Positions 52,176-53,889 of a DNA stretch of 53,889 bases are shown one piece after another (positions within the stretch are counted from its first letter, which is position 1; every line of letters begins with the position of its first letter). Source of the DNA: Acidobacteriota bacterium (lineage in GTDB: Bacteria; Acidobacteriota; Terriglobia; Bryobacterales; Bryobacteraceae); the NCBI GenBank assembly GCA_021787555.1, contig JAJYLS010000002.1:1-53889 (forward strand), given 5' to 3'. The notes under the pieces are model-generated. The model was given only the letters and a program-made list of their open reading frames with translations. It did no database searches and had not been told where the DNA came from. The position numbers and the translations under genes were made by a program.

Positions 52176-52388
52176 GTGCTGGTCTCGGGACAGATTGCGG
52201 TTTTAGCTGTCGATGTTTCCTGTTCCGAGGGTTCGCTTTCCGTCACCTTAAGTGACGGGCGGGTGGTTTCGGTGCCACTCGTCTGGTTTGCACGGCTTGC
52301 GGATGCCTCGCCTCGGCAACGATCGGACTGGGAGTGATCTCCGCGAACGCCGTTTGAGGCCAATGTCACCCTAGCGGGAGTTTATTAA
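52176..52388 (+). pseudogene. Remnant of a DUF2442 protein
   Basis: A GTG-started frame encodes SLSVTLSDGRVVSVPLVWFA, then RLADASPRQRSDWE and an in-frame TGA at 52335-52337. After the stop it continues as FEANVTLAGVY. This matches DUF2442 (L..DGR..SVPL.WFPRL..A....R..WE...), with the IHWPDIDED segment lost. DUF2442 proteins often pair with DUF4160 as toxin-antitoxin modules. No toxin partner is seen here. It is decayed. Confidence 0.65.
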
Positions 52389-52394
52389 AACTCC
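52377..52394. terminator. Small perfect hairpin
   Basis: GGAGTTT (52377-52383), a loop ATTA and AAACTCC (52388-52394) form a perfect 7-bp stem at the end of the DUF2442 remnant. It may be a terminator or part of a mobile-element end. Confidence 0.3.
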
Positions 52395-52447
52395 GGGCCC
52401 GTTCTTAGCCAAGCTCCTGTGTGTAAATGATTTCGGATGTTCTGATC

Positions 52448-52539
52448 TGTATATACGTAATCGGCTGGGCATTTGGGGGTCGTGCCGCTTCTGGAAATAA
52501 TCCTTAACTTGCCTTCTGGAATGAGTGTATATACGTAAT
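52448..52539. repeat. Two copies of a 14-bp sequence flanking the transposase start
   Basis: TGTATATACGTAAT occurs at 52448-52461 and again at 52526-52539, directly before the transposase-derived frame. They are direct repeats 78 bp apart. Each includes a partly palindromic TATACGTA. They may be an insertion-element end or its target duplicate. Confidence 0.5.
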
Positions 52540-52910
52540 TGATGGCTTCCCTCCAAGCCTACCAGTCGCACGGAATTCGCTATTACCGTATCATCGAGTC
52601 TTTTCGCCAGGACGGCAAGCCGCGCCTTCGTGTGGTCGCCCATCTCGGCCGCGTGGAGGACAGCCAACAAGCAGTTCGTCACTACAAAGAGTTAGCCAAC
52701 GTCGAGCGCGCCTTTCGCAGCCTGAAGAGTGTGGATCTCAAAATTCGACCCATTCATCATCATCTGGAGGAACGGGTTTGTGCACACGTGTTCCTCTGTA
52801 TGCTGGCGTATTATGTCGAGTGGCATATGCGTCAGGCACTCGCTCCGATGTTGTTTGACAATCACGATCCGGCCGCCGGCGAGGCGCTGCGTCCTTCCAT
52901 CGTGGCGTAG
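52539..52910 (+). pseudogene. Internally deleted IS1634-family transposase
   Basis: The first ~45 residues (MMASLQAYQSHGIRYYRIIE, then SFRQDGKPRLRVVAHLGRVE) match the N-terminus of IS1634-type IS4-superfamily transposases. The frame then jumps to the C-terminal block AVRHYKELANVERAFRSLKS followed by VDLKIRPIHHHLEERV and CAHVFLCMLAYYVEWHMRQA. The remaining frame is 123 aa, against more than 500 aa for a complete enzyme. An in-frame deletion removed most of the catalytic core, although the E of the DDE triad (in VERAFRSLK) may remain. It cannot be active alone. Confidence 0.7.
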
Positions 52911-52957
52911 CGAGTGAAGGTTTCACGCCTTTCGGTAGCATCATGGTAGAGTTGGGC

Positions 52958-53206
52958 ATGTCCTATTTCGTCAGCGTCCAGGATGATGCCGGTCACCTTA
53001 CCTCTTTCATCAACCTCGACTAGGTCCGCATGATTACGGATATCAGCCCCGACGGCTGCAAAGTCCACTTGGGAGCCAATTTCACGGCCATAATCAATGG
53101 CGCGGAATCCGCGAAGCAGTTTCTCATGCTTGTCGCAAAGTACTCTGCGAGCAGTGCGCCGGCCGACGAAACTACTTCGGTGCCGCCGGCAGCGCCTGCC
53201 AGTTAA
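52958..53206 (+). pseudogene. Small gene interrupted by an in-frame amber codon
   Basis: The frame from ATG 52958 reads MSYFVSVQDDAGHLTSFINL then D and TAG at 53021-53023. It resumes with VRMITDISPDGCKVHLGANF, then TAIINGAESAKQFLML, and ends at TAA 53204-53206. Both sides have normal coding character in one frame, so the stop appears to be a single mutation. The phrase FINLD-x-VRMI is a natural beta-strand pattern. Downstream ATG 53030 could give a shorter product. The function is unknown. Confidence 0.6.
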
Positions 53207-53424
53207 GCAGTTAAGCAGCGGCCGAATATCGCCCGTCGGTGATGATTATGGGCGTAAATCTCCTGGGTGGTCCGGACGGGGCTATGGCCCCGGCCAGCAG
53301 GGCCGATGTGCTCGTGGGAGAAGCCGTGTACCAGTTCATGTACCAATTAGCGCCGAACACTCCGCACGGTCCGCAATTTGCGCGCGCCTCCGCGTATAGT
53401 TATCATATATTTACGCCCTTGCCC
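53207..53424. other. Region left of the tRNA-Pro fragment, no clear gene
   Basis: One plus-strand frame reads MGVNLLGGPDGAMAPASRAD then VLVGEAVYQFMYQ, which may be a decayed accessory gene, but it has no recognised family and no clear ribosome-binding site. The rest up to the tRNA fragment is AT-rich and has no obvious features. Confidence 0.2.
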
Positions 53425-53474
53425 CTTGCCTTGGGCGCAGGGGGTCGGGCGTTCAAATCGCCCCGCCCCGACCA
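53425..53474 (+). tRNA. Orphan 3' half of tRNA-Pro(UGG), likely attachment-site scar
   Basis: The anticodon stem CTTGC/GCAGG (53425-53429 with 53437-53441) encloses loop CTTGGGC with anticodon TGG. The variable region is GGGTC, the T-arm is GGGCG-TTCAAAT-CGCCC, and the acceptor strand CGCCCCG, discriminator A and CCA end at 53474. The matching 5' acceptor (CGGGGCG) and D-arm are absent upstream. This is the 3' half of a tRNA-Pro gene, as left at one end of an element integrated into a tRNA. Given the plus orientation, the element would lie to the left. Confidence 0.8.
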
Positions 53475-53820
53475 TGAAATTAAAAGACTTATCGCAATTG
53501 TTACACGCGTCGAATTCCTGAGTTTGTGTGCACTTGTGTGCAGTTCGGAGCCGTTCTGACCGGATGTTGGCCCCGATAACTTCCGGCACCACTCGGCCCG
53601 AATCAGGCGTACTTTCCGGTATGGGCGTTTTTCGTCAAGGCGCCCCGACCTGCCCACGTTCAGCAAGTCCTCTCAGGGTTGGCCTCCGGCCTGCTGACCA
53701 CCATAGGGTGGCCTTTGACCCAACCACTGGCCGTCGGGCAAAATGGCGATTCCACTCTCGCAACCTGCACTATAGACCACTGTATAAATGATGCAATAAT
53801 GGTACAGGAGACGAGTTCCT
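53475..53820. other. Region right of the tRNA fragment, no gene seen
   Basis: No convincing gene is present. A 9-bp direct repeat TTGTGTGCA occurs at 53524-53532 and 53534-53542, with a 10-bp period. Short open frames on both strands here derive from the tRNA sequence and are spurious. Confidence 0.35.
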
Positions 53821-53889
53821 GTGCCAAGACCGAAGGGTAGTGCGGATCTCCTGTCCGACCGGCGTCGGCGCGCCTTGGCGTTGCTGAAG
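53821..53889 (+). CDS. 5' end of an IS630-like transposase (truncated by window)
   Basis: From GTG 53821 the frame reads VPRPKGSADLLSDRRRRALA then LLK and leaves the window. This is the start of the helix-turn-helix N-terminus of IS630-type transposases in this group (RRRALALLxxG...). AGGAG lies about 10 bases upstream. Only the first 23 codons are present, so integrity cannot be judged. Confidence 0.5.
   Translation, partial: MPRPKGSADLLSDRRRRALALLK

Follow-up and report, generated by a model that had tools for sequence, protein, structure and literature searches.

The window analysed here, a stretch of 53,889 nucleotides, is the whole of contig C513 of a draft genome in 516 contigs that is 92% complete. 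Near its right end, on the plus strand at 53427–53474, it carries the 3′ 48 bp of a tRNA-Pro(UGG) gene, from the anticodon stem and loop to the CCA, without the 5′ half. In 10 genomes of the same family the intact gene ends in the identical sequence (48/48 positions; DNA E-values 1e-17 to 7e-19). The anticodon arm of this core reads CTTGC (53425–53429), the loop CTTGGGC (53430–53436, with the anticodon TGG at 53432–53434) and GCAGG (53437–53441), the T arm is GGGCG-TTCAAAT-CGCCC, and the CCA occupies 53472–53474. The fold from anticodon stem to CCA proposed from the sequence alone is right, except that positions 53425–53426 lie outside the identity with the tRNA, which starts at 53427, and pair by chance rather than by descent from it. 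The tRNA-Pro 5′ half is absent from the window and ARAGORN finds no complete tRNA there, so that, given the 48/48 identity, the orphan 3′ half that had been described is real. It is the only tRNA-Pro fragment on the contig, the arm motifs on its two sides are unlike, and no further copy of tRNA-Pro, whole or partial, is found in the 516-contig draft; a single copy with arms on both sides argues against a tRNA split by an assembly error and against a piece scattered at random through the genome. A mis-join may lie further left of the fragment, at an IS1634 relic.

None of the 31 tRNA-like matches given by a covariance scan of the draft genome is a proline tRNA. Most amino acids have a tRNA in the draft; proline has none, and other tRNAs are missing too. 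This absence is expected, because the draft is only 92% complete and fragmented and because proline is not the only tRNA lacking, and the intact tRNA-Pro gene most likely lies in an unassembled or unbinned part of the genome.

Relatives of this bacterium often have one intact tRNA-Pro(UGG) gene plus at least one orphan 3′ half of about 45–48 bp, and tandem 3′ halves are common, lying in several relatives on one contig. Nearly all of these halves extend through the CCA and share, to within about 3 bases, a starting point that immediately precedes the anticodon loop. The window half starts at the same point (53427), which places the crossover in the anticodon stem/loop region, and the anticodon-loop class is a known class of tyrosine-integrase sites (PMC4383910; PMC3706429). 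Because the break lies in the anticodon stem/loop, where the relatives too have orphan 3′ halves, the window fragment is, as far as its sequence can tell, the product of integration by a tyrosine integrase; random rearrangement or deletion is unlikely, since the break sits exactly in the integrase crossover region. The scar of tRNA-targeted integration that the sequence-only reading had proposed is in this way supported by both the core identity and the break point. That reading had also pointed to an intact tRNA-Pro(UGG) gene next to an integrase as evidence to look for. Such a pair is found in three relatives (G004, G023 and G035) and in the record of a prophage of about 62 kb, with a convergent integrase, whereas the window's own draft is without any intact tRNA-Pro. 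The ancestral site could not be placed by synteny because the neighbourhoods of tRNA-Pro in the relatives hold no conserved genes, upstream or downstream, at E 1e-15. tRNA-Pro(UGG) is a repeated integration site in this bacterial family, and repeated integration there may explain why draft genomes break at this gene or lose it.

To the right of the core, the 25 bp that follow the CCA (53475–53499, plus strand) extend the match into the flank of the ~62-kb prophage integrated at tRNA-Pro(UGG) (record IMGVR_UViG_3300048599_000861; L175 in G247), core and flank being 93% identical over 73 bp. The prophage record has phage-like ORFs and an integrase with PF00589. A pair of direct repeats, TTGTGTGCAC and TTGTGTGCAG, lies at 53524–53543 on the plus strand, 50 bp from the CCA and with a 10-bp period (p=0.002 versus shuffles); direct-repeat pairs 10–12 bp apart occur at +34 to +69 in 12 of 16 tRNA–integrase pairs tested in the family, each with p≤0.005 versus shuffles. 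The exact 20-mer formed by the right pair is found elsewhere in the genome only at C8:9394–9413, and at up to 1 mismatch it is absent from 199 other genomes of the class. The C8 site follows an intact tRNA-Val(TAC) gene at a distance of 60 bp and is itself followed by a broken integrase, which is 47–58% identical to the prophage integrase and of the same family. A short-peptide scan found no relative of a piece of this broken integrase in named genomes, and 19 of 150 family genomes, among them that of the window, hold relatives of the intact prophage integrase. In the window itself, a reading frame on the minus strand (53347–53592) that spans the repeats and reaches into the tRNA half resembles the C-terminal tail of an integrase, with RTAHKCTQ here and SAHKCTQ at the C8 site. 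No integrase catalytic domain is left in this frame, nor is there one on the window contig. The contig ends inside a multi-copy insertion sequence, whose left end (53768–53889, plus strand) is 100% identical to C398:6353–6474 and 97% identical to C318:64–182; this insertion sequence, found at two or more further sites in the genome, cuts off the right-hand element. Judging from the homology to the prophage flank, the repeat pair at +50 and the 20-mer common to another tRNA–integrase site, what lies on the right is an element's integrase-proximal (P) arm and not plain chromosome.

On the left, a second pair, TGTACCAGTT and TGTACCAATT, 12 bp apart, starts 100 bp before the core (53326–53348, plus strand). 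Its two members are the sole matches to TGTACCAGTT at up to 1 mismatch in the 53.9-kb window, the joined pattern appears in 0 of 100 shuffles, and the tRNA-Pro prophage has the same motif in its P-arm repeat (TTGTGTACCAGTTGTGTACCAG); judged as a repeat alone, the pair is marginal (p=0.06). Next to it, 52911–53325 (plus strand) is presumably the last remnant of a left-hand element, and contains an amber-interrupted ORF (52943–53203, TAG at 53021–53023) for which searches of Pfam, PHROGs and 60 family genomes gave no homologue. It is preceded by an IS1634-like transposase relic (52371–52910, plus strand) with an internal deletion and a missing right end, which is recognised by its DNA matches (99% to C441:13421–13711 for 52371–52662, 85% to copies in G001 and G020 for 52661–52907) and by a weak match to DDE_Tnp_1. 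The interrupted gene and the IS1634 relic had both been noted from the sequence alone and both are present. The DUF2442 remnant listed with them has no Pfam match even at E≤5, and the decayed accessory DNA of which the left side was said to be full does not extend beyond about 1.5 kb: the region from 0.5 to 52.2 kb (549–52150) consists of ordinary chromosomal genes, outside any element, with products such as GH127, a DNA polymerase IV family protein, TldD/PmbA, gamma-glutamyltranspeptidase, homoserine dehydrogenase, a formyltransferase, ROK, MFS, PfkB, TPR and EamA proteins. Two genes at 50.5–52.2 kb are present in most relatives, but neither near tRNA-Pro nor adjoining each other. A long prophage covering the left 52 kb was considered and rejected, as no protein is common to this region and the 62-kb prophage record. 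The chromosome came to lie beside the last half kilobase of the left element either by an assembly mis-join or through deletion or rearrangement, in both cases at the IS1634 relic.

A published attP (PMC3706429) has repeats of matching number, length, spacing and position, and on these grounds the repeat pairs of the window are taken to be putative arm-type integrase-binding sites. In the elements of G004 and G023, of which both ends are known, the same motif is present at both ends, whereas the two sides of the window core differ; an unlike arrangement of arms on the two sides, as in the window, is found at two other loci described below (L199 and L174). A seam between two elements would be the simplest reading of the differing arm motifs. 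With a probability of about 0.63, we propose that the fragment is the shared core of a phage-type attachment site, in a P′-core-P junction between two tandem element remnants, and not the right edge of one element. The edge model of the sequence-only reading, with the element to the left, holds in so far as the distal (P′) arm does seem to lie on that side; it fails on the right, which carries the P arm of another element instead of plain chromosome.

Binding of an integrase at the repeats, ownership of the two arms by two elements and the order of events are what we infer from these observations, as follows. An integrase of this family would have recombined an attP into the anticodon loop of tRNA-Pro(UGG) in a way that restored the tRNA; a second element would then have entered the tRNA restored by the first, the 3′ half staying between the two elements. 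The resulting order would be intact tRNA, element 1, 3′ half, element 2, 3′ half, chromosome. Element 1, on the left, would have arm repeats of the TGTACCAG kind and would be reduced to about 0.5 kb beside the IS1634-like relic. Element 2, on the right, would have arm repeats TTGTGTGCA(C/G), like the tRNA-Val element of the same genome, and would have lost its integrase gene behind the insertion sequence at 53768 and the contig end. Both elements would have decayed, with the involvement of two IS elements. Several observations weigh against this seam: the left pair is weak when taken purely as a repeat, an integrase catalytic domain and an intact tRNA-Pro are missing from both the contig and the draft, and, with chromosome left of 52.9 kb, element 1 is known from about 0.5 kb alone. 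In addition, GTGTACCAGTT and GTGTGCAGTT are not very unlike, and both pairs might belong to one integrase.

This last point also favours an explanation in which the locus is a single complete attP (P′-core-P) that was never split, either because an element was captured through IS-mediated or homologous recombination, or because of a mis-join in the contig, at the IS1634 relic, between the chromosome and a phage or plasmid in its free form. Both arms would then naturally flank one core, GTGT and CAGTT are common to the two repeat motifs, and the chromosomal genes start just left of an IS relic whose 99% partner in C441 makes it a possible mis-join point. A single attP is the chief rival of the seam, but we nevertheless regard it as unlikely, since elements with known ends have the same motif at each of them, unlike the window, and since the draft contig runs through the site without a break. 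The model proposed earlier, in which the core is the attR of one left-lying element and chromosomal DNA that lay downstream of the original tRNA-Pro begins after 53474, accounts for a plus-strand 3′ half without its 5′ half and for a distal-arm-like repeat pair on the left; it is quite improbable given the three features that identify an integrase-side arm on the right, the 20-mer being common only to another tRNA–integrase site, and given that no element-like genes occur for 52 kb leftward.

Chromosomal genes and an IS relic on the left, together with the p value of 0.06 for the left repeat, could instead mean that only the right-hand element exists, with chromosome on the left, the tRNA 5′ half lost by deletion or rearrangement beside the IS1634 relic, and a left pair due to chance. 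A random deletion would not pick the exact integrase crossover region, however, and the left motif is a prophage arm motif, which together make this explanation very improbable. A functional split tRNA, of which the 3′ half gene would be joined in trans, or a tRNA interrupted by an intron, would agree with a draft devoid of intact tRNA-Pro. Such an absence is expected from this incomplete draft, no 5′ half is present, the gene is intact in relatives, and no intron RNA family is found nearby, an Rfam scan of 52.0–53.9 kb for introns and tRNA-like families giving no match except chance snoRNA matches; we give this possibility practically no credence.

The seam that we favour would be an ordinary structure of a well-known kind, and everything at this locus is of known kind. 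Tandem arrays of tDNA-targeted elements are recognised (PMC4383910; PMC3146451). The tDNA-targeted islands and tandem arrays found by Islander (PMC4383910) share with the window the displaced 3′ tDNA fragment, the anticodon-class crossover and tandem members separated by tDNA fragments; they differ in that the window contig has neither an intact tDNA nor an integrase ORF, and in that both window elements are remnants. The attP of Cluster J mycobacteriophages, which target tRNA-Leu, has a 44-bp tRNA core with pairs of 10-bp direct repeats on both sides (PMC3706429). The window resembles it in the core of 44–48 bp starting from the anticodon loop, in an apparent position near the 3′ end of int and in 10-bp direct-repeat pairs on both sides, of which the left one is putative, but all Cluster J arm sites follow one consensus (PMC3706429) whereas the left and right pairs of the window differ. 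The L175 prophage is similar in its tRNA-Pro(UGG) target, in its right flank and in its arm motif, which is that of the window's left pair; its integrase and its tRNA are intact, and it has otherwise no genes in common with the window. The ssrA islands of Dehalococcoides (PMC3146451) likewise lie in tandem, in large numbers and with a copy of the target-gene 3′ end between neighbours, and include decayed and integrase-less members, but their target is a tmRNA and their enzyme a serine recombinase.

An orphan tRNA half need not mark the edge between an element and the chromosome, and the methodological lesson is that edge and seam, one element and two, can be told apart by the arm repeats on both sides of the half. 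We would go further only tentatively, and with some doubt, in suggesting that the seam joins prophage-type elements with related integrases and different arm codes, one integrase family having spread over many tRNA targets in this bacterial family while keeping its core-arm layout and changing its arm repeats. If this were true, tandem accretion could be read from the locus, and the arm specificities of integrases decoded from it.

Several other loci present related arrangements. A second orphan half in the window's genome, on contig C228 (G000, locus L111, 635–685), is a tRNA-Cys 3′ half identical at 51/51 positions to the intact gene on C182; a complete 432-aa integrase lies on its right, with the same geometry as in the window. 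In another genome (G326:C8, locus L199), an orphan tRNA-Thr(CGT) 3′ half has an integrase on the right and unlike repeat pairs, TGTGTGCC and TTGTTCAA, on its two sides, a close parallel to the window. In the record IMGVR_UViG_3300029953_001161 (L174), which is not circular, two tRNA-Pro 3′ halves enclose a 4.1-kb unit that has an integrase and a beta-clamp-like ORF; the junction of the record bears the arm of another element. Integrase-less mini-elements of 1.4–1.8 kb, also between tRNA-Pro 3′ halves, are found at L072, L073 and L074 (in G014, G018 and G021) and at L079, L086 and L118. They have one or two cargo ORFs, carry the 22-bp repeat GCTGTAGATNATTTTGTAGCTG at either end and, in several genomes, share a conserved distal arm of about 130 bp; they look like small cassettes moved in trans. 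Finally, an apparent orphan tRNA-Val(GAC) 5′ half is present at a contig start in the window's genome (G000:C8:15–97, locus L146), and 24 bp of the window at 53611–53634 (TACTTTCCGGTATGGGCGTTTTTC) match C359:15203–15226 in an otherwise unrelated context.
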